Positions 16,301 through 45,986 are shown, counted from the stretch's first letter. The stretch is 52,887 nucleotides of DNA from an uncultured Eubacteriales bacterium (GCA_900315995.1 ONBF01000011.1:1-52887); one strand, 5' to 3'. A program made the numbers and translations. The notes: generated by a model not told the origin, from the sequence alone.

Positions 16301-17728
16301 ATGGCACACACTAAAGAATGGCGTTCAAGTATGAAAATACGCTTCGATTACAACAATATGATGCAAGCGTATATCGGAGAACACGGAATTACCGACGAAG
16401 AAATTTTCGCGAAAAGCAAACTTGCTAAAAACGCTTTGAATTTCTACAAGACCAACCGCGGCACAGGTATGATGTGTTGGAGTGAACTTCCGTACAATCA
16501 GACGGAAATCGTTAAGGAATTAAACGAAACGGCACGTTATATTTGCAAGAAATTCAAAAACTTCGTCGTACTCGGAATAGGCGGTTCCGCGCTCGGTCCG
16601 ATAGCGGTATTCCAAGCTCTCAATCATTTGAGAAACAACGAGCTTCCGAGAAAGGTTCGTAAAGTCCCGAAACTTTATGTGGAAGATAATGTAGACCCCG
16701 AGCGTATGGCTTCGCTACTAGACGTAATCGATGTTGAAGAAACGATGTTCAACGTTATTACAAAGAGCGGTTCAACGAGTGAAACAATGAGTCAATTCCT
16801 TATTATTTCGGATATATTGAAAAAGAAGCTCGGCGATAGGGCAAAAGAGCATATTATAGCGACTACTTCGGAAAACAAGGGTAATCTTATTAAGATAGCA
16901 CAGCGTGAAGGTTATAAAACGTTCTATATTCCGGACGGCGTAGGCGGAAGATTTTCGGAACTTTGCCCCGTTGGACTTCTGACGGCTGCCGTAATGGGTG
17001 TGAATATTTCGGAAATGCTCAAAGGCGCCGCCGATATGGATAAAGCGTGCTTGAACAAAAACGTATCCGAGAACCCTGCGCTTGCAGCTGCGGTACTTCA
17101 ATATATCGCTATCGAAAAGGGTAACAACATTTCGGTTATGATGCCGTATGCCGATGGACTTAAATACATTGCCGACTGGTATTGTCAACTTTGGGGCGAG
17201 AGTCTCGGAAAGAGAATCGATCTTGACGGTAAAGAAGTTTTTGCGGGGCAAACTCCGGTTAAGGCACTCGGCGTCACCGACCAACACAGTCAAATTCAAT
17301 TATATACCGAAGGTCCGTTTGATAAAGTCATAACTTTTCTCGGCGTAGACAAATACAGAGCGGAAGTCAAAATACCCGACGGATACAAAGATATTCCCGC
17401 AGTATCGTTCCTTTGCGGACATACGCTTAACGAACTTATAACCGCAGAACGTATGGCTACGGAATATGCGTTGATGCGCGCGGGACGTTTGAACCAAACC
17501 ATTATGCTTCCCGAACTCAATGAATATACACTCGGACAGCTCCTTATGTTCTTTGAGATACAGACGGCTTTCGTAGGCGCGATGTTTAATATCGATTCGT
17601 TCAATCAACCCGGCGTTGAAGAGGGCAAGAACGCAACATACGCATTGCTCGGCAAAGAAGGGTTTGAAGACAAAAAGAAAGAACTTGCGTCAGCACCTAA
17701 GAAGGACGCAAAATATATTATTCAATAA
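16301..17728 (+). CDS. pgi: Glucose-6-phosphate isomerase
   Basis: This 475-aa enzyme interconverts glucose-6- and fructose-6-phosphate. SIS-fold motifs are visible: VLGIGGSALGP, ITKSGSTSETMSQF, GVGGRFSELCPVGLL and GVTDQHSQIQLY with the catalytic His. The start has an AAGGAG site 7 bases ahead. A small GCAGT/ACTGC hairpin lies just before that site. The gene closes the amino-sugar operon (glmU-like, glmM, pgi), which links hexose-phosphate supply to wall precursors, and is followed by a strong terminator. Confidence 0.96.
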   Translation: MAHTKEWRSSMKIRFDYNNMMQAYIGEHGITDEEIFAKSKLAKNALNFYKTNRGTGMMCWSELPYNQTEIVKELNETARYICKKFKNFVVLGIGGSALGPIAVFQALNHLRNNELPRKVRKVPKLYVEDNVDPERMASLLDVIDVEETMFNVITKSGSTSETMSQFLIISDILKKKLGDRAKEHIIATTSENKGNLIKIAQREGYKTFYIPDGVGGRFSELCPVGLLTAAVMGVNISEMLKGAADMDKACLNKNVSENPALAAAVLQYIAIEKGNNISVMMPYADGLKYIADWYCQLWGESLGKRIDLDGKEVFAGQTPVKALGVTDQHSQIQLYTEGPFDKVITFLGVDKYRAEVKIPDGYKDIPAVSFLCGHTLNELITAERMATEYALMRAGRLNQTIMLPELNEYTLGQLLMFFEIQTAFVGAMFNIDSFNQPGVEEGKNATYALLGKEGFEDKKKELASAPKKDAKYIIQ

Positions 17729-17758
17729 ATTAACTTAATAATCCGATTCGTATATAAG

Positions 17759-17792
17759 GCGTTTCACTAAGATGTGAGACGCTTTTATTTTT
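17759..17792 (+). terminator. Intrinsic terminator after pgi
   Basis: GCGTTTCAC (17759-17767) pairs with GTGAGACGC (17774-17782, one G-T pair) and is followed by TTTTATTTTT. It isolates the amino-sugar operon from the tail-like cassette. Confidence 0.9.
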
Positions 17793-17886: not shown

Positions 17887-18684
17887 ATGAGAGTAGTTAT
17901 AGGAATAGACGGCAATGTGATTTTGACGGAGCAAGGCGCGATTTTCAGTAGAAGTAATGCGGTGAACAGACTTGAATTATACAGTCCGTACAGTCCGCTC
18001 GATGCGGTGATACTTAGTTTTAAGAGGCAGGATCACGTCGAACCGATGAGTAGGTATATGGCATATACGGGTATACAACAATATAACGGGAGCAATTATT
18101 ACGTATATGTTCACGATTTTTCGGCGTATCAACTTGCATCTGTCGGAACACTCGAAATGAATTGCAAAATAGTTATGTACGGCGGTGAAACGGTATTATC
18201 TACGGGTACGTTTTACGCAACGGTCGAAGACGGCGGAACTACAAATATCGAACTTCTTGCGGACGAGCAAAGTGAACTCCTTGCGCTTACGCAGGCGATA
18301 GAAAGCAGAGCCGTTTTACAACCGCTTGCAACACCGAATAATTTTGCGTCGATTGACAGTAGCGGACAGTTTGTGGACAGCGGTATAGCGGTATCGAGTT
18401 TAAGTTCGATATTAAACGGCAAAACGTATAGATTCAGCGTAACGATTCCGGTATCGTCGTGGAACTTGCAGACAAAACAAGCGACCGTTAACGTTCAAGG
18501 CATAAATTCAGATTGGACTTTGAGTTTTGCGCCTACACCGTCGAGTAAAACTGATTTTATCAATGCGGGAGGAGTGTACGGTGTGTCGATAGGAAGTAAT
18601 AGTATAACTTTCGAGTGCGTATCGATACCGACTTCCGAAATTGAAATGATTTGCGTCGGGGGTGAATACGATGCCTTGTCTTAA
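17887..18684 (+). CDS. Phage tail/baseplate (BppU-like) protein
   Basis: This 265-aa protein has no signal peptide. Its N-terminal about 115 residues read like the beta-sandwich of phage upper-baseplate proteins (VILSFKRQDH, YYVYVHDFSAYQL, LEMNCKIVMYGGETVLSTGTF then a VEDG linker). A short helical segment (ADEQSELLALTQAIESRA) follows. The C-terminal part (about 185-265) is a beta domain starting FSVTIPVSSWNLQTKQATV. A closely related domain opens the next gene. Start ATG 17887 was chosen for the GGGAG 5 bases before it. It is the first gene of a six-gene cassette after a terminator. Phage origin is inferred from fold-like pattern and neighbours, not a decisive motif. Confidence 0.55.
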   Translation: MRVVIGIDGNVILTEQGAIFSRSNAVNRLELYSPYSPLDAVILSFKRQDHVEPMSRYMAYTGIQQYNGSNYYVYVHDFSAYQLASVGTLEMNCKIVMYGGETVLSTGTFYATVEDGGTTNIELLADEQSELLALTQAIESRAVLQPLATPNNFASIDSSGQFVDSGIAVSSLSSILNGKTYRFSVTIPVSSWNLQTKQATVNVQGINSDWTLSFAPTPSSKTDFINAGGVYGVSIGSNSITFECVSIPTSEIEMICVGGEYDALS

Positions 18685-19876
18685 CAATTATTTGCAGTTT
18701 ATCAAGCGGACGGTTACGATAACGCCTGCCGATTGGGACGCGGAGACCAAACTTGCCGCGGTTCAAGCCGATTGGGCAGTAGCGGGGATGAGCGCGACGT
18801 TTGCTCCGGTCGAGAGTTCAATGAACGTATTTACGGATATAGCGGTGCAAGGGGTGTATTGTACAAATATACTCAACGGAGATTTATTGTTTAAGTCGGG
18901 TAGCGGTGCAATAGTCAACGAGAATATAACTCTTAACGTGACGGCTTACAATGACGGTAAGGGAATTATCGTCAATGCGGAGATTGTCGGCGAAGGTATA
19001 AACGGTATGAGTATAACGGATAATTCGTTTGATTTTACGACTTCCGATAACGGAAGCACGATAACGAACATTAAATCCGTTTTTAAGTTAGTAATTCCGC
19101 CTTATGACGACCACGGCAATGAAATTACGGCGATACAACAAAGCAATAATAATTCGGTTGTCGGAGAATTGTATTTAATCAATAATATTAAAACGGTAGG
19201 AAACAGCGCATTTTATAATTCGAGTAATTTGAAAAAAGTGTATATCGGGAAGCAGTTAACGCTTATAGGCGCGGCGAGCGGAGGTTCGATACGTTCTTTC
19301 GGAAATTGTCCGAATTTATCCGAAGTCGTTTTCGAGCGCGAACGTACGGAGTTATTGGTGATAAGAAACTTCGATTCTAATGATGCAAACGCGTTGTTCT
19401 ATAACTCCGCAATAGAGAATCTTGTTATCCCCGAGAACGTCCAACTGATAGAAAAACCGTTCGCAAATTGTACGAAATTAAAAGCAGTCAGATATGAGAG
19501 TTCTTATGGTCTCGGTTATCCTTTCAGAAACTGTACTGCGCTTGAAGAATTAACCTTTACGCAAGCAACACCCGTAACAGTAGGAACACCTGCGCAAACG
19601 TTCAATTCGGCGCACTATATATTTGTGCCGTATGACAGTTTTACGGCTTATACGACCGCTACTAATTGGACAAGTTATGCAAGTTATATGTACGGTATCG
19701 GCAAATTTACGGCGGGTACTACATTGCCGACCAAAACAACGGACGATGGCTTTGATTTGACGTGGTATGCGACGAAAGCCGACTTAAAGGCAAGCAACAA
19801 CCCGATAACTGTTGCGCCGAGTGAGTTTGACAACGAATACGGCGAAATATATTGCGCTAAGGCTGTCGCCGAATAA
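18671..19876 (+). CDS. Tail-fibre-like protein with BspA-type leucine-rich repeats
   Basis: This 401-aa protein begins with the same type of domain that ends the preceding gene (VTITPADWDAETKLAAV...), then a beta region, then BspA/LRR_5 repeats (about residues 130-340) with units such as VGNSAFYNSSNLKKVYIGKQ and NLVIPENVQLIEKPFANCTK. BspA repeats bind surfaces or host glycoproteins. No signal peptide or anchor is visible, unlike secreted BspA proteins, which fits a virion-type protein. The ATG at 18671 overlaps the preceding stop, with GGGGGTG upstream. Likely the receptor-binding component of the cassette. Confidence 0.6.
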   Translation: MPCLNNYLQFIKRTVTITPADWDAETKLAAVQADWAVAGMSATFAPVESSMNVFTDIAVQGVYCTNILNGDLLFKSGSGAIVNENITLNVTAYNDGKGIIVNAEIVGEGINGMSITDNSFDFTTSDNGSTITNIKSVFKLVIPPYDDHGNEITAIQQSNNNSVVGELYLINNIKTVGNSAFYNSSNLKKVYIGKQLTLIGAASGGSIRSFGNCPNLSEVVFERERTELLVIRNFDSNDANALFYNSAIENLVIPENVQLIEKPFANCTKLKAVRYESSYGLGYPFRNCTALEELTFTQATPVTVGTPAQTFNSAHYIFVPYDSFTAYTTATNWTSYASYMYGIGKFTAGTTLPTKTTDDGFDLTWYATKADLKASNNPITVAPSEFDNEYGEIYCAKAVAE

Positions 19877-19885
19877 GGAGAGAAT

Positions 19886-20335
19886 ATGAAATATTTATTG
19901 AAAGAAAAAAGGGGCTATATTACAGAGCGTCCCGAATATGTTGACGTAAACGAAAATATAGTCGTCGAATTTGAGTTTGAAGACGGAAAACCGCCTGTTA
20001 TCGACAGCGGACTTTACGCCGTTCTTTTGAGAAGCGACGGTAAAGAGTTTACATATAAGATAGACGATAAACTCAAAGTATCGCTTAATAATAAAGAGAT
20101 TAACAAAGGATTGTTTTCGTTGACTGTCGTTCTCGTTATAGGTAATGAAATAAATAAGTCATGGAGATGCGAGCCGTTTTCGATAGAAAGTCTTACGGAT
20201 ATTATCGGCAACGTTCGCGAAGTCAACGAAAGTATGGAAGTGTTAAACGAGATAAAAACGCTTAATGAAGAAATTAAATTATTAAAAGACCGCGTGGAAC
20301 TGCTCGAAAACGAGTATGATCCGCGCAACATATAG
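19886..20335 (+). CDS. Small tail-associated protein with C-terminal coiled coil
   Basis: This 149-aa protein has beta-rich residues 1-105 (NIVVEFEFEDGKPPVIDSGLYAVLLRSDGKEFTY) resembling the N-terminal beta-sandwich of phage baseplate proteins, then a heptad-rich helix (about 108-143, leucines in MEVLNEIKTLNEEIKLLKDR) expected to form a coiled coil. No catalytic motif and no signal sequence. GGAG lies 8 bases ahead of the ATG. Tightly packed between the fibre-like gene and the membrane genes, so probably a structural or trimerising part of the same assembly. Confidence 0.5.
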   Translation: MKYLLKEKRGYITERPEYVDVNENIVVEFEFEDGKPPVIDSGLYAVLLRSDGKEFTYKIDDKLKVSLNNKEINKGLFSLTVVLVIGNEINKSWRCEPFSIESLTDIIGNVREVNESMEVLNEIKTLNEEIKLLKDRVELLENEYDPRNI

Positions 20336-20343
20336 GAGGAATT

Positions 20344-20838
20344 ATGGATTTTAACGGTATTTGGAACTCAATCGAGCCTTATGTGATAGGCGCATTGACC
20401 GCGTTTATAAGCGGCGGTATGATATTTATTCTCGTAAAGCAAATTCTGAGTGGCTGGCTCAACAGAAATAATATCGATACGCTTGCCGAGCGTTTTGCAA
20501 ACAGCGTTGTCGGCGAAAAAATTTACGTTGATATACGAGCGTTATCCGACAAACGCGTTAAAGAACTCAACGAACAAATTAAGAATACTATCGAAGTTAC
20601 GTTAAAAAGAAATCTTAACGTTATCAATAATATCACTGCGATAGTTGCTGATGTGGGAGAAGTATTTATCAACAGTAAGACAGTGACTCCCGCACAACGC
20701 GCGAGACTTAAAGAAGATGTTGAAGCCGTAAGAAACGCAAGCGGTTGCGATTCGGTAAAGAGCGAAGATTGCTTAGTGGTTAATTTGGCACTTAACGGCA
20801 ATGAAGATAAAGAAAGACGACTTATTAATTTCGATTGA
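20344..20838 (+). CDS. Small membrane protein with helical cytoplasmic domain (holin-position gene)
   Basis: This 164-aa protein has one N-terminal transmembrane helix (about residues 12-36, PYVIGALTAFISGGMIFILV), then a long charged helical domain. Its position, right after tail-type genes, is where phages keep holins, but the charged domain of about 120 residues is not holin-like and no endolysin follows. It might anchor or dock the assembly to the membrane. AGGAGG lies directly ahead of the ATG. No family recognised. Confidence 0.5.
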   Translation: MDFNGIWNSIEPYVIGALTAFISGGMIFILVKQILSGWLNRNNIDTLAERFANSVVGEKIYVDIRALSDKRVKELNEQIKNTIEVTLKRNLNVINNITAIVADVGEVFINSKTVTPAQRARLKEDVEAVRNASGCDSVKSEDCLVVNLALNGNEDKERRLINFD

Positions 20839-20847
20839 AGGTGACGT

Positions 20848-21336
20848 ATGAAGTATTCAAAAAGAAAGCTTACGTTTTTTATATTCGAAGTGTTGTTTTC
20901 GGTAGTAATTCCAATATTGATAGGCATATTGTCGTGTATGGATAAAGGGCTTAAAGTAAGAATAGGCGCATACGGCATAACGCTTGCGATAATTTTATTT
21001 TACGTCATCAAAAAGTTGTTTATCAATAAACGGGTCGAAAACCTTAAAGGATTTACAGTACATCTTAAAAGCGAACTTGCGATAGAAACGGACGCCGTGA
21101 AGATTAACAATATAAGGCGCGCGCTTGCAAAGGCGCAAGTCTTTGAAGTTATTGCTACGGCAATCACTCCGATAGGCTTGTTAAGCGTATTTTTGTTGGT
21201 ATCTAAGAGCATAGAAGCGGGCATAGCGCACCTTTCGGGAGCTGTGGGACTTATTCTTTTATCAGTGATAATCGGGACGGTATTCGCAGTGCTTAACGCG
21301 TCGGTAATACGATGCGGAAACGGAGACGCGCAATGA
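20848..21336 (+). CDS. Four-helix membrane protein of unknown function
   Basis: This 162-aa protein has hydrophobic helices at about residues 9-28, 35-55, 95-117 and 125-148, and a charged loop between helices 2 and 3 (KRVENLKGFTVHLKSELAIE). No known motif. GGTG precedes the ATG. Its stop overlaps the start of the next membrane-protein gene, so the two are translated together. Function unknown; the pair belongs to the tail-like cassette by spacing and strand. Confidence 0.55.
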   Translation: MKYSKRKLTFFIFEVLFSVVIPILIGILSCMDKGLKVRIGAYGITLAIILFYVIKKLFINKRVENLKGFTVHLKSELAIETDAVKINNIRRALAKAQVFEVIATAITPIGLLSVFLLVSKSIEAGIAHLSGAVGLILLSVIIGTVFAVLNASVIRCGNGDAQ

Positions 21337-22136
21337 AGTATGCATTAAAGACTGTTGCTCTTACATCGATTTTTTTACTTGTAGTATTCATAAATATACT
21401 GAGCGACTACATAAGTTTTTCGTTCTCGACAGCGATATTTACAGACGCTGCTTATTGGCTGAACGTAGCTATACTTAATACGGGACTTATTATAGTCATA
21501 ATGATATGCAGGTCGTATGCAAAGGATAAAGAGATTGGTAGCAACAAAGAGTATGCGGATACGCAGAAAGAAATCGACGGCGCATACGTCGAGTTCAATA
21601 AACGCAAATTGTATACCGAGTTCAATAAGTATATAGGTGAAATCAATTTTAATAATAAGCTTGAAAGATACGAGATTAAACTTAATAGGAAATTAATTAA
21701 AGCCAAAAAAGAAGAGCGCAAAAACGAGCTTAAAGAATTAATAAAACGTGCGAGCGACGACGTTAAATATGTTCGCGTAAGATACAGGAAGTTACGAATT
21801 GCGAGTATTTTTTCGAGAACGGATATGAACGTTAAAGACGAATATGACATAGACGAACACGAAATGCGTGCAATTTCAAAACTTATGCTTAACAGGGTGC
21901 TTGCGATACTTGCGTTCAGTCTCGTATTTACAAGCGTATTGATGTCTGCGCGCGAGTTTGACATAGTGATGTTGTATTCCACGATGCTTAAATTGTTTCA
22001 GGTAGCGACGTCGATTTACGTCGGATTATCGGCGGGTTACAATTATGTTGCGGGTGAAATTTTACCTAAAACAAAACTTAAATTGCAGATTATAGAGAAG
22101 TTTCTCGAAAGCCGTTCGAATAACGACAATCTGTAA
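21333..22136 (+). CDS. Membrane protein with cytoplasmic charged helical domain
   Basis: This 267-aa protein has two N-terminal transmembrane helices (about residues 5-27 and 38-58), a highly charged helical middle (about 60-185, rich in Lys, Glu and Arg, with KAKKEERKNELKELIKRASD), and two C-terminal helices (about 193-212 and 222-243). ATGA overlap with the preceding stop and GGAG upstream fix the start at 21333. No family recognised. It closes the cassette; an independent promoter starts the next gene at 22144. The double hairpin topology with a large cytoplasmic domain is unlike ordinary holins. Confidence 0.55.
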   Translation: MKYALKTVALTSIFLLVVFINILSDYISFSFSTAIFTDAAYWLNVAILNTGLIIVIMICRSYAKDKEIGSNKEYADTQKEIDGAYVEFNKRKLYTEFNKYIGEINFNNKLERYEIKLNRKLIKAKKEERKNELKELIKRASDDVKYVRVRYRKLRIASIFSRTDMNVKDEYDIDEHEMRAISKLMLNRVLAILAFSLVFTSVLMSAREFDIVMLYSTMLKLFQVATSIYVGLSAGYNYVAGEILPKTKLKLQIIEKFLESRSNNDNL

Positions 22137-22143
22137 TTCGTGA

Positions 22144-22172
22144 TTGCAAAAATAATTAAAGCGTGTTATAAT
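22144..22172 (+). promoter_or_regulatory. Sigma-A promoter of the NYN-domain gene
   Basis: TTGCAA (22144-22149) and TATAAT (22167-22172) are spaced by 17 bp, 27 bp before the ATG at 22200. Confidence 0.75.
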
Positions 22173-22199
22173 AACCCCATTAATTTTGATGGAGTTATT

Positions 22200-22973
22200 A
22201 TGACCGGCGATAAAAAGATTGCACTTTTAATCGACGCGGAAAACGTGTCGGCTAAATACATCGGATATATTTGCAAAGAGCTTACAAAGTACGGAGTTGT
22301 GACGTATAAGCGTATTTACGGCGACTGGACGGGAAAAGGTGCGGACGGGTGGAAAAAGGTTTTGCTTGAACACTCGATAACGCCTATTCAACAGTACAGT
22401 TATACGGTGGGGAAAAATTCGTCCGACAGTGCTATGATAATAGACGCAATGGATATTTTGTATTCTCAAAGCGTCGATGCGTTTTGTATCGTATCGAGCG
22501 ACAGTGATTTTACGCGTCTTGCGGTAAGGCTCAGAGAAAACGGTAACACCGTTATCGGTATGGGTGAAAAGAAAACCCCGCAGGCATTTATTACGGCGTG
22601 CGAAAAATTCATATATCTCGAAATGCTTGCGCCTACGCAAAGCGTTAAGAAGACGCCGAAACGTTCGACTGTTGAAAAAACGGTAAATGATAATAAAGAA
22701 AACGTCTCGATTGAATCCGATATGACTATAATAATCGACGCGCTGAAAGATATTATCGAAGATTTAAGCGATGATATGGGCTGGGCGTATCTTGCGGACG
22801 TATTCAACGTGCTCGGCAAGCGGTTCCCCGATTTCGATTCGAGGTTATACGGTTACAAGAAAGCGTCGGAGTTTATTCGATCGCTTGAAGAATTCGAAAC
22901 GGAAGCGCGCTCGACTAAGGGAACGGGTAACCCCGACAGAATTTTCGTAAAAATTACGGGCAAAAAGAAATAA
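22200..22973 (+). CDS. NYN-domain (LabA-like) protein with C-terminal LOTUS/OST-HTH domain
   Basis: This 257-aa protein has an N-terminal NYN/PIN-like RNase fold with its acidic sites: ALLIDAENVSAKYI, SSDSAMIIDAMDILY and FCIVSSDSDFTRLAVRLRENG. After a charged linker (about 150-178) comes a winged-helix LOTUS/OST-HTH domain (about 180-255: WAYLADVFNVLGKRFPDFDSRLYGYKKASEFIRSL). Such proteins bind and probably cut structured RNA. Start at 22200 is set by GGAG and the promoter; the longer frame from 22140 overlaps the promoter. It stands alone between the tail-like cassette and a bidirectional terminator. Substrate unknown. Confidence 0.88.
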   Translation: MTGDKKIALLIDAENVSAKYIGYICKELTKYGVVTYKRIYGDWTGKGADGWKKVLLEHSITPIQQYSYTVGKNSSDSAMIIDAMDILYSQSVDAFCIVSSDSDFTRLAVRLRENGNTVIGMGEKKTPQAFITACEKFIYLEMLAPTQSVKKTPKRSTVEKTVNDNKENVSIESDMTIIIDALKDIIEDLSDDMGWAYLADVFNVLGKRFPDFDSRLYGYKKASEFIRSLEEFETEARSTKGTGNPDRIFVKITGKKK

Positions 22974-42293: not shown

Positions 42294-43553
42294 ATGAGAA
42301 TTTTAGGAACGTTTTTTTCGATTATTATGGCGTTAGTTTCTATGCTAAACGGACTTGGCTTTCAAGACGCAACCGTTAATAACTTGAATACGTATATCGC
42401 ACAAGACTGCGTTTCGGTTGCTGATTTCATCGAAAACAATTTTGAACTTTTCGTTGAAGAGTACAATAATTCGTCGGACGAAGACGAAGACTGGTATGCC
42501 GAATACGTTGAGAACAGATTTATTATAACCGTAAATGAGTGCGGAAACGAATATAAAGGCGTTTTCCTTGACTTTGATAACGATAACGGCTATGCCGTAG
42601 TCGGAGACGATTACAATTTATGTGATTTCAAAACACAAGGCGAGTCGCCGTATCTCGATATAGTTTCCGACAGTTATTGCTATTCCGTGGTTTGCGGATA
42701 CTGTTACTTGCGTGACGGAGAATATGTAAGCGTAAACGAAGAAAACAACGCGGACGAAAATTTCATTTATGATAATGTCGTAGCTAAAAATTATGCGGGT
42801 CATGAAGATAAAAATGTAAAAGGTTGCGGGAGAATTGAAGACCCTGATCAATATGTAAACGATAAGTACGACGGCGGTTGGACTCTCGGACGGAACAATC
42901 ACTTAAATATGCAAGGTTATGCTCAATGGTATTTATCTTGTTATATTAAAGATGGTAGTGAAGGAAACTGTTGGTTTGTTTCCGCATATCATGTGTTGCA
43001 ATATATGGCGGACGTTTATTGGAAAAATATGCCTCAACGGTACGCTATGATCGGTTATTATAATCCGCAAACGCGAGAACCGACTTTGTATGCTAAATAT
43101 ATGTCCGAGGGTTATCGCTTAAATGATAGTAGAACTATTACAGAGTTATACGCCGACGTAAGAAAGCATATTAACGAAAGATATCAGCAAGTAGACGAGG
43201 GGATGATTTGGGATACTTCGGAGATAATCGAATATGTTGCAAGACAGTACGGGCATTACGTTAATTCGGTTGAACACATTGCGTGGGGATTATACACCGA
43301 TACGGCGACGAAAAAAATAGACAGCGGATATCCGGTATTGTGGTCTACGTCGAACGATACGTACGGTTCACACACAATGGCGGTGTGCGGATATAAATAT
43401 TATTGGAAAACGACGGGCTGGTGGATATTCAAAACAGCGTCATATAAACTTTTCTTTGAGATAAAAGACGGGTGGGTTGGTAATGGAGCATCGAGATATT
43501 ACGATATATCTGGACACGCCGGGTTTAGTGCGATTATATCATTGGAATTTTAA
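42294..43553 (+). CDS. Secreted papain-like cysteine peptidase (C10/C39-like)
   Basis: This 419-aa protein starts with a hydrophobic signal sequence (to about residue 24). A pro-region (about 40-140) has VENRFIITVNE and GYAVVGDDY, resembling the propeptide of streptopain-type C10 peptidases. The catalytic part has Cys226 in EGNCWFVSAYHVLQYM, His360 in GSHTMAVCGY and Asp392 in KDGW. The family cuts proteins outside the cell. Two lipoprotein genes follow at 18 bp, as inhibitor or accessory genes do in some protease loci. AAAGGA lies before the ATG. The exact peptidase family is not certain. Confidence 0.75.
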   Translation: MRILGTFFSIIMALVSMLNGLGFQDATVNNLNTYIAQDCVSVADFIENNFELFVEEYNNSSDEDEDWYAEYVENRFIITVNECGNEYKGVFLDFDNDNGYAVVGDDYNLCDFKTQGESPYLDIVSDSYCYSVVCGYCYLRDGEYVSVNEENNADENFIYDNVVAKNYAGHEDKNVKGCGRIEDPDQYVNDKYDGGWTLGRNNHLNMQGYAQWYLSCYIKDGSEGNCWFVSAYHVLQYMADVYWKNMPQRYAMIGYYNPQTREPTLYAKYMSEGYRLNDSRTITELYADVRKHINERYQQVDEGMIWDTSEIIEYVARQYGHYVNSVEHIAWGLYTDTATKKIDSGYPVLWSTSNDTYGSHTMAVCGYKYYWKTTGWWIFKTASYKLFFEIKDGWVGNGASRYYDISGHAGFSAIISLEF

Positions 43554-43571
43554 CGAGGTGTAAATATAGAA

Positions 43572-44096
43572 ATGAAAAGAGTAGTATTATCCGTAATTAT
43601 AATATCCGTTGTGTTGCTGTTTGTAGGTTGCGGTCCGTATTCGAGAGTGAGAAAGTATCATATCGGCGAGGAAATTGTGTTCAGCAACGGCAGCGTCAAA
43701 TTGGACATTGACATAGATAATGAACGGTTTATCTATTATGATAATGTCGCTTCCGATAAGCAGTGGGGGAGTTTTAGTTTTGGATTCCGTGATCATTTGA
43801 CGGGTAAATACTATACAGATAATCCAACGCAGGTTGATGATGTTCGAACATTTGATTATTCCAAAGAATTTGAAATCACCGACAAAGACGGAAATGGAAT
43901 AGTTTTTACCGACCCTTCGGATAGTGGTATTTACTATTATGAATATTACGGCTCTAATATTTTCTATATATCATACAAGAACGCAAACACCGAAATCAAA
44001 GAAGCGATAGAAAAGGATAGGTATTCTATCGATACGGACAGTTTTGGGTTTATTTCTGAGCATTGGAACGATTCGACAAGCGAAAACGTCGAATAA
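43572..44096 (+). CDS. Lipoprotein, first copy of a tandem duplicate
   Basis: This 174-aa lipoprotein has signal MKRVVLSVIIISVVLLFVGC (lipobox LFVGC, Cys20). The mature chain is rich in Asp, Tyr, Phe and Ser with GSVKLDIDIDNERFIYYDN and EFEITDKDGNGIVF, a beta-type pattern like DUF4352-style domains. It is about 18 bp behind the peptidase and shares most of its sequence with the next gene. Exported, membrane-tethered; function unknown. Confidence 0.8.
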   Translation: MKRVVLSVIIISVVLLFVGCGPYSRVRKYHIGEEIVFSNGSVKLDIDIDNERFIYYDNVASDKQWGSFSFGFRDHLTGKYYTDNPTQVDDVRTFDYSKEFEITDKDGNGIVFTDPSDSGIYYYEYYGSNIFYISYKNANTEIKEAIEKDRYSIDTDSFGFISEHWNDSTSENVE

Positions 44097-44104
44097 GATA
44101 AAAA

Positions 44105-44641
44105 ATGAAAAGAATAGTATTATCCGTAATTATAATATCCGTTGTGTTGCTGTTTGTAGGTTGTCATTATAAAGGGGTGAGATTTTATGATTATTATATC
44201 GGTGAGGAAATTCAGTTCAGCAACGGCAGCGCCAAATTGGACATTGACATAGATAATGAACGGTTTATCTATTATGATAATGAAAATTCCGATAAACAGT
44301 GGGGGAGTTTTAGTTTTTTATTCCGTGATCATTTGACGGATAAAGACTATACAGATAATCCAACGCAGGTTGATGATGTTCGAATATTTGATTATTCCAA
44401 AGAATTTGAAATCACCGATAAAGACGGGAACAAAATTGTTTTTACCGATTTAGATTCTACAAGTAGCGGTATTTATGGTTATGAATATTACGGCTCTAAT
44501 ATTTTCTATATATCATACAAGAACGCAAACGCCGAAATCAAAGAAGCGATAGAAAAGGATAGGTATCGTATCAGTGCCGGCGGTTTTAGGTTTATTTCTG
44601 AGAATTATTGGAACGCTATGCCAAGCGAAAACGTCGAATAA
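44105..44641 (+). CDS. Lipoprotein, second copy of the tandem duplicate
   Basis: This 178-aa protein is a near-copy of the preceding gene: the same signal (lipobox LFVGC, Cys20), GSAKLDIDIDNERFIYYDN and a shared end IKEAIEKDRYRI. Differences cluster just after the lipobox and near the C-terminus. Only 8 bp separates the copies. A strong terminator follows. Divergence at the mature N-terminus suggests different partners or drift. Confidence 0.8.
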   Translation: MKRIVLSVIIISVVLLFVGCHYKGVRFYDYYIGEEIQFSNGSAKLDIDIDNERFIYYDNENSDKQWGSFSFLFRDHLTDKDYTDNPTQVDDVRIFDYSKEFEITDKDGNKIVFTDLDSTSSGIYGYEYYGSNIFYISYKNANAEIKEAIEKDRYRISAGGFRFISENYWNAMPSENVE

Positions 44642-44647
44642 GATACG

Positions 44648-44690
44648 AAATTAATACGCAAACAACATATACTGTTTGCGTATTAATTTT
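44648..44690 (+). terminator. Long perfect hairpin terminator
   Basis: A 17-bp arm (44648-44664) pairs with 44673-44689 around an 8-base loop; AATTTT/T-rich end. It closes the protease-lipoprotein operon. The stem is AT-rich at its base. Confidence 0.85.
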
Positions 44691-44726
44691 AAGAAAAGAA
44701 TTATTTTGATGTATTATATGTTATTA

Positions 44727-44741
44727 AAGTCAAGTTGACTT
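44727..44741. repeat. Perfect 15-bp palindrome
   Basis: AAGTCAAGTTGACTT is symmetric about its central G and lies in the 225-bp non-coding stretch before recF. It may be a repressor site or chance; its right half shares the string AAGTTGACTTGTTT with 140-153 near the araC promoter. Confidence 0.3.
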
Positions 44742-44880
44742 GTTTAGAGAAACTTTATATACGACGGACGTTTATTGAACGATATACCGTAACGTTTGAT
44801 TTTATCGGTTATTATTCGCAAATAAAAGAATTGATTTATATGCCGAATATAAACATAATGAACGTTTTTATATTTCTTAA

Positions 44881-44909
44881 TTGTCAAAAACATTTAATAA
44901 TGTTATACT
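44881..44909 (+). promoter_or_regulatory. Sigma-A promoter of recF
   Basis: TTGTCA (44881-44886) and TATACT (44904-44909) with 17-bp spacing. The -10 box ends 6 bp before the recF ATG, so the transcript should begin at or near the start codon. The same two boxes are found at the tpiA promoter. Confidence 0.75.
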
Positions 44910-44915
44910 TCAATT

Positions 44916-45986
44916 ATGAAAATTTCCGAGTTGAGACTTGAAGATTTCAGAAACTACGCGTCCGAACGCGTAGTTTTCGACGACGGTATCAATATCGTCA
45001 ACGGGCGTAACGCGGCGGGTAAGACGAATTTACTCGAAGCGATATATCTGTTTGCAATCGGCAAATCGCCGCTTGCTGTAAAGGATAAAGAACTTGTCAG
45101 GATGGGTGCGTTACGCGCTCACATATCGGCGGACGTATTCGATATGTACCGCACGCGCAAGATGGATGTTGTCATAGATTCGTCGGGTAGGAAACAGATA
45201 GCGGTAGATTCCGTGCCGCTTCTCAAAGTAAGCGAGCTGCTCGGTACGTTTAACGTAGTGTTTTTTTCACCCGACGATCTTAAAATGATAAGTGAAGCGC
45301 CGAGTGACAGGCGTAAATTTACGGACGTAAGTTTGTCTCAGCAAAGTAAACTTTACGGACAATCACTTACCCGATATAACTATGTACTTGCGCAGCGCAA
45401 TAAACTTTTGAAGACTTTCAAAAACAAACAAAGCACACTCGATACGCTTGAAGTGTGGGACGGAGAACTTATTAAAGCGGGTGCCGAAGTCTTGCGTTTG
45501 CGTAACGAGTTCATTACGCGCTTGATACCGCTTGCGCGAGAAAAGCATTTTTATTTATCGGGTGAAAGCGAAGAACTGACGTTATCATACGACGGAATAA
45601 CCGAAAACTATCTCGACGCGTTTACCGCCGCTTTGTGTGCCGCGCGTGATAAGGATATAGAGTTGGCGTATACGACCGTCGGACCGCATAGGGACGATAT
45701 AGCGATACGCGTAAACGATACGGACGTAAGGAAATACGGTTCGCGCGGACAGCAGCGTACGGCGTCGCTTGCGCTTAAACTTGCGGAGACCGAAGTATTC
45801 AGAAAGGTTTCGGGCGAGTATCCAGTACTCTTACTCGACGACGTTATGAGTGAACTTGACGACACGAGAAAAAGCAGACTCATATCGGCGGTGGACGGTA
45901 TTCAAACTTTTATAACCGACACGACGTTCAAGTGTGATAACGCTCGTAAATTTTTGGTTGATTCGGGTAAAGTTTTGTCTTATTGA
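44916..45986 (+). CDS. recF: DNA replication and repair protein RecF
   Basis: This 356-aa SMC-like ATPase loads RecA at gaps with RecO and RecR. It starts MKISELRLEDFRNY, has Walker A GRNAAGKT (residues 30-37), an ABC-type signature region near GSRGQQRTASLALKLAE, and Walker B LLLDDVMSELD (about 305-315). No ribosome site precedes the ATG and the promoter ends 6 bp away, so the message is probably leaderless. In most bacteria recF sits with dnaA and dnaN; here it is between a lipoprotein locus and spmAB. Confidence 0.96.
   Translation: MKISELRLEDFRNYASERVVFDDGINIVNGRNAAGKTNLLEAIYLFAIGKSPLAVKDKELVRMGALRAHISADVFDMYRTRKMDVVIDSSGRKQIAVDSVPLLKVSELLGTFNVVFFSPDDLKMISEAPSDRRKFTDVSLSQQSKLYGQSLTRYNYVLAQRNKLLKTFKNKQSTLDTLEVWDGELIKAGAEVLRLRNEFITRLIPLAREKHFYLSGESEELTLSYDGITENYLDAFTAALCAARDKDIELAYTTVGPHRDDIAIRVNDTDVRKYGSRGQQRTASLALKLAETEVFRKVSGEYPVLLLDDVMSELDDTRKSRLISAVDGIQTFITDTTFKCDNARKFLVDSGKVLSY

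Follow-up and report, generated by a model that had tools for sequence, protein, structure and literature searches.

How does a compact row of phage tail-like genes and membrane protein genes come to lie in a bacterial chromosome with no phage around it? The question is raised by a contig of an uncultured Eubacteriales bacterium (GCA_900315995.1, ONBF01000011.1:1-52887), analysed here at its full length of 52,887 nucleotides and called the window. It is one entire contig of a 1.3-Mb assembly (G000) that comprises 73 contigs and is 97% complete. At positions 17887-22136, six intact, co-directional open reading frames (ORFs) are tightly packed on the plus strand, which we designate g1 to g6. An earlier note, made from the sequence alone, had described them as a one-strand cassette of overlapping or closely spaced genes following a terminator, with no phage body, and this description holds: the terminator lies at 17756-17785, and no integrase, replication, tube, sheath, head or packaging gene is located near the cassette in the window, although the integrase was not searched genome-wide.

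Both the decay of prophages and their domestication by hosts are well-known processes. We conclude that the cassette is very probably a prophage remnant: a temperate tailed phage of a lineage-specific group would have integrated here and left its right-hand end. Complete viruses of related bacteria end their genomes with these genes in unchanged order, so that ordinary virus decay accounts for the locus and explains the absence of a phage body in the window. The locus itself would thus be one more prophage remnant, and the apparent tail device without a phage is explained away.

Genes 3-6 close prophage late operons in related bacteria

To place the cassette among its relatives, all loci were located by searching with g6. 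Across 396 genomes of the order, g6 has matches in seven (G000, G033, G084, G198, G272, G317 and G387), which represent five families, and it is also carried by a 36.8-kb IMG/VR contig, IMGVR_UViG_3300006217_000223. In all eight places (the seven genomes and the IMG/VR contig), g4, g5 and g6 are adjacent and in this order behind a gene resembling g3, with pairwise identities of 18-30% for g4-g6 between the window and the relatives. Within a set of 40 relatives, G033, a member of a different family within the order, is the only genome with g4 (E = 2.9e-13) and g6 (E = 7.9e-43), which stand side by side. A class-wide sample of 391 genomes gave a g6 match in G000 alone, and the two other genomes of the source's family contain no homologue of the cassette. 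By tblastn, no relatives of g6 or g5 were found among the INPHARED phages; most scans of viral contigs were empty, and two returned the same 36.8-kb contig. Two matches were dropped: a marginal g6 match in G143, which lies within an ABC-transporter-like frame, and a match in G011 within a MotA/ZorA-like gene.

Wherever the context is readable, the module concludes a prophage late operon on its right-hand side; the contigs of G317 and G084, at 3-4 kb, are too short to show any context. The contig of G033 (CAOJOK010000017.1, an uncultured Clostridia metagenome-assembled genome) begins inside the gene of the terminase large subunit and continues with a portal protein (phrog_533, E = 3.4e-28), a protein of capsid size, connectors, a 198-residue glycine-zipper protein, a 1165-residue tail protein, a fibre and g3-g6, followed by host genes. 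The prophage of G387 extends over approximately 36 kb from the integrase to g6, with early genes, terminase (Terminase_3, E = 3.4e-48), portal (phrog_64), capsid (phrog_422), connectors, tail protein, and baseplate and fibre genes in between. Likewise, the IMG/VR contig has its integrase close to one end and g6 close to the opposite one, with terminase, portal, capsid, tail and fibre genes and then genes 3-6.

These three prophages are complete or near-complete. As in the window, their baseplate and fibre genes, including a fibre with leucine-rich repeats (LRR) in G387, are followed at the right end by the g3-like gene, g4, g5 and g6. Unlike the window, which holds the last six genes only, they have terminase, portal, capsid and tail genes. 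G198 and G272 contain decayed prophages. In G198, the portal gene and most of the capsid gene are gone, and the tail and the module are intact; in G272, the left portion as far as the capsid gene has disappeared, as has the tail-tip gene, and g3-g6 are intact. Both have kept the fibre and g3-g6 as a right end with broken or lost head genes, as in the window, but they retain several connector and tail genes, of which the window retained none. The earlier note had named the presence of the same genes inside prophages of relatives as the finding that would refute it, and this is largely what the five loci present.

The prophages also offer several observations in their own right. The G198 terminase is split (L019:3599-4809), and its middle piece, inverted, now runs into the end of the capsid gene, the result of a deletion accompanied by inversion within the prophage. 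In G272 (L021:16095-16985), a fibre-like N-terminus of 46 residues continues in frame into a complete triosephosphate isomerase domain (TIM, E = 5.2e-74). A lipoprotein-like gene resides on the opposite strand between the tail and fibre genes in G033 (L008:5590-6249) and G198 (L019:12178-12876); the two are 47% identical, and their position recalls superinfection-exclusion lipoproteins. The complete-looking prophages of G387 (L024/L034) and of the IMG/VR contig (L027/L032/L033) have no recognisable endolysin or long tape-measure gene, and in both a glycine-rich protein of 150-200 residues precedes the large tail protein. In faecal virus particles, a prophage 36.8 kb long from a Christensenellales bacterium has been reported, together with packaging similar to that of gene transfer agents in Christensenellaceae (PMC12946183). 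Its length is similar to that of the IMG/VR contig, and the bacterial order may match; we regard it as a lead only.

Genes 1-3 resemble the receptor-binding end of a tail

The first gene, g1 (17887-18684, 265 residues), encodes a baseplate/fibre-like protein. It has no match of weight to any Pfam, PHROG or PADLOC family. As no significant homologue of g1 was found among the 40 relatives, its assignment as a probable baseplate protein follows from its position and from a shared domain: genes 1 and 2 occupy the place of the baseplate and fibre genes in related prophages, and the C-terminal domain of g1 is common to the N-terminus of g2 (BLASTP, E = 0.002). Neither g1 nor g3 has a Pfam match to the BppU family, and the likeness to a BppU-type baseplate protein is one of position and layout alone.

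The second gene, g2 (18671-19876, 401 residues), encodes a receptor-binding/fibre-like protein with a BspA-type LRR_5 domain (Pfam, E = 1.4e-12). It matches phrog_18805 (E = 2.8e-15), as does the 610-residue LRR fibre of the G387 prophage (E = 8.4e-40), and a direct comparison of the two proteins gives E = 3e-5. Neither the LRR_5 domain nor the domain common to g1 and g2 had been noticed in the earlier note.

As for g3 (19886-20335, 149 residues), it is a small β plus coiled-coil protein located between the fibres and the membrane proteins. Its collinear counterpart in the G033 prophage is L008:9271-9936, with 29% identity and phmmer E-values of 6e-6 to 9e-6, and the two proteins have similar ends, YDPRNI in g3 and YDPTII in this counterpart. 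Taken together, g1-g3 presumably correspond to a receptor-binding tip. No tail tube or sheath family was found in the cassette or in the scanned proteins of the parent prophages; no genome-wide search was made for them.

A three-gene membrane module at the end of the late operon

The remaining genes encode membrane proteins. From hydropathy, we count one transmembrane (TM) helix in g4, four in g5 and three clear ones in g6, whose distant homologues have four. The g4 protein (20344-20838, 164 residues) consists of a single N-terminal TM helix and a charged cytoplasmic helical domain, as supported by the G033 homologue and the family alignment. The g5 protein (20848-21336, 162 residues) has two TM hairpins flanking a short helical loop, and its homologues in the prophage loci match with E = 4e-26 to 8e-28. 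The g6 protein (21333-22136, 267 residues; an alternative upstream ATG is possible at 21312) contains approximately 110 residues of charged helices between two pairs of TM helices. Its AlphaFold2 model consists of helices only, with a long helical region in the middle (mean predicted local distance difference test score, pLDDT, of 75; predicted template modelling score of 0.58). The membrane proteins with charged helical domains described in the earlier note are thus borne out by hydropathy and by the model of g6.

Structure comparison brought matches to viral proteins. The g6 model resembles A0A345BNV1 (E = 9.5e-6, template modelling score 0.66) and A0A2Z4GU85 (E = 3.2e-4) in BFVD, both unnamed viral proteins, and no PDB match was obtained for g6 by structure or by profile. 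The best BFVD match of the g5 model, which has a low confidence with a mean pLDDT of 65, is to a podovirus protein without a name, A0A8S5S6R7 of Podoviridae sp. ctsUe5 (E = 5e-3). These resemblances indicate that membrane proteins similar to g5 and g6 occur in other viruses. In Pfam and PHROG, g4-g6 match no functional family and no holin family, and their homologues have no PHROG holin match. PADLOC returned weak matches only, to ZorA for g4 (E = 5e-4, 16.9 bits) and to a 4TM effector for g5 (E = 0.017, 12.1 bits). Pfam matches such as Peptidase_C3 or S_4TM, as well as PHROG matches of the homologues to "integrase", "HNH", "hemolysin" and similar, were rejected as weak and looking like chance similarity of coiled coils or TM helices.

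What might such a trio do? Phages of Gram-positive bacteria carry holin/lysis cassettes whose small membrane proteins come from the final genes of the late operon, behind those of the fibres, and g4-g6 share this place. They differ from holins in family membership, in the larger size of g5 and g6 with the four TM helices and charged loops of these two proteins, and in having no endolysin domain beside them. Pfam detected no endolysin domain in the scanned proteins of G387 and the IMG/VR contig either, tail and fibre proteins included, although most ORFs below approximately 110-120 residues were unscanned and unfamiliar lysin types would escape such a search. The last place in the late operon, the overlapping genes and the membrane topology suggest a role in lysis or egress, which we favour tentatively, at somewhat less than even odds. 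Exclusion of other phages comes second, as a possible role that we consider clearly less probable. The trio diverges faster than the structural genes between related prophages (33-38% identity for g6 against mostly 59-88%), which fits either role.

In the parent phage, g1-g3 may accordingly have built the receptor-binding tip of a tail that lacks a long tape-measure gene. The late message would end with g4-g6, whose products, translated after the others, may have acted jointly in the host membrane at lysis or egress; we hold this picture with the same tentativeness as the role itself. More speculatively, g4-g6 could be an undescribed three-protein membrane module at the late-operon end of a phage group without a recognisable endolysin, a new machine for lysis, egress or exclusion that bacteria kept during prophage decay as protection from related phages; this extended proposal appears doubtful to us. 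The greater value of the locus lies in this module, whose order is conserved across five bacterial families and which ends the late operons of phages without recognisable lysis genes. If the trio does serve these phages for lysis or exclusion, it would be of a new kind.

Decay or domestication

Under the reading as a prophage remnant, the head, packaging, integration, early and main tail genes would have been deleted from an integrated phage. Left behind would be the baseplate/receptor-binding genes g1 and g2, the small linker protein g3 and the terminal membrane module g4-g6, that is, the last 4.2 kb of the late operon, cleanly joined to host DNA between the PGI terminator on the left and the NYN promoter on the right (both described below). 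In line with such a loss, G000 yielded no match to the large tail protein, to the phrog_533 portal or to the terminase large subunit, portal and capsid of three head types, whereas the same queries recovered their own genomes; in two of these searches, several phage proteins were concatenated end to end as a single query.

Several observations weigh against a remnant. All six frames are open, and the distance of g4-g6 to outgroup homologues (0.189) lies within the range of the phage-borne copies (0.182-0.192), a weak test at such identities. Unselected remnants would not keep intact frames and an unaccelerated rate for long. The phage origin of g1 is deduced from its position and the domain common with g2, with no significant sequence homologue. 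We found no convincing attachment-site repeat; the repeats around the cassette are short, imperfect and away from its two edges, and were rejected as attachment sites. Nor could an empty site be read next to PGI in G001, G002, G272, G198 or G033, because each of the five has a different arrangement of genes past PGI. Without such a repeat or site, the excision history is unproved. Furthermore, the searches could have overlooked phage genes that have diverged too far from the queries, as well as any in the missing parts of the 73-contig assembly.

The main alternative is domestication, in which the host has put the membrane trio and the baseplate/receptor proteins to its own use: they might stop related phages at the membrane (exclusion), for instance, or form a surface device. 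The six frames and their ribosome-binding sites are intact, and the TM topologies equal those of the phage copies (one helix in g4, four in g5, three to four in g6). The faster divergence of the trio is also what host-facing proteins often show. In addition, three of the five judgeable chromosomal loci (G000, G198 and G272) are decayed prophages with an intact right end. However, every remnant found by a g6 search must retain its right end, a bias that strips most of the weight from this count, which alone cannot support domestication. The absence of the cassette from both other genomes of the family, its sporadic distribution in the order, the lack of a defence family match of weight in PADLOC and of a convincing promoter of its own also speak against it, and we judge domestication unlikely. 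Of the three origins offered in the earlier note, the prophage remnant thus gains support from the syntenic prophages, whereas the domesticated surface or defence device finds no positive support. The apparently unimpaired frames, topology and rate are compatible with both a recent loss and a retained function, of which recent decay is the simpler given the sporadic distribution. Most likely, the cassette does nothing essential in the present genome.

In codon usage, the cassette scores 0.090 per codon with the host codon table, against 0.087 ± 0.039 for the host genes in the window, which agrees with the host-like codon style stated earlier. The long residence deduced from it does not follow, because a phage adapted to the lineage would look alike.

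A complete but unusual small element, such as a satellite or a tail-like injection device, would suit the compact operon-like layout and the clean edges at a host terminator and promoter, but it is highly improbable, being largely refuted by relatives that carry the module as one end of a far larger prophage and lacking any integrase, replication, tube, sheath, capsid or packaging gene nearby.

Edges, host neighbours and further observations

Within the cassette, g1 and g2 overlap by 14 bp, g5 and g6 overlap in ATGA, and the remaining gaps measure 8-9 bp. Direct reading of the sequence places a Shine-Dalgarno-like sequence before each of g1-g5. Host genes immediately flank the cassette on both sides, all on the plus strand. 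The left neighbour encodes phosphoglucose isomerase (PGI, 16301-17728; Pfam PGI, E = 1.9e-43), with homologues in the relatives that are 56-77% identical. The intrinsic terminator closing this gene has a 12-pair stem and a 6-nucleotide loop followed by a T run, and the 158 bp from PGI to g1 contain no recognisable tail-gene fragment.

On the right, the remnant ends directly before a promoter-like site of the extended -10 type that belongs to the following host gene (22144-22172; TTGCAA and TATAAT separated by 17 nucleotides, with TG). The right neighbour (22140-22973) encodes a protein with NYN (Pfam, E = 3.6e-37) and OST-HTH (LOTUS; E = 1e-13) domains; its likely start is an ATG near 22200, 3' of the promoter-like site.

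Elsewhere in the window, a region of low G+C content (34-42%) at 42294-45986 contains three ORFs without a Pfam match and then an SMC/RecF-like ATPase. Finally, the weak g4 match in G011 led us to adjacent MotA/ZorA-like and OmpA/MotB-like genes (L009:9274-11267), possibly a Zorya-type pair.

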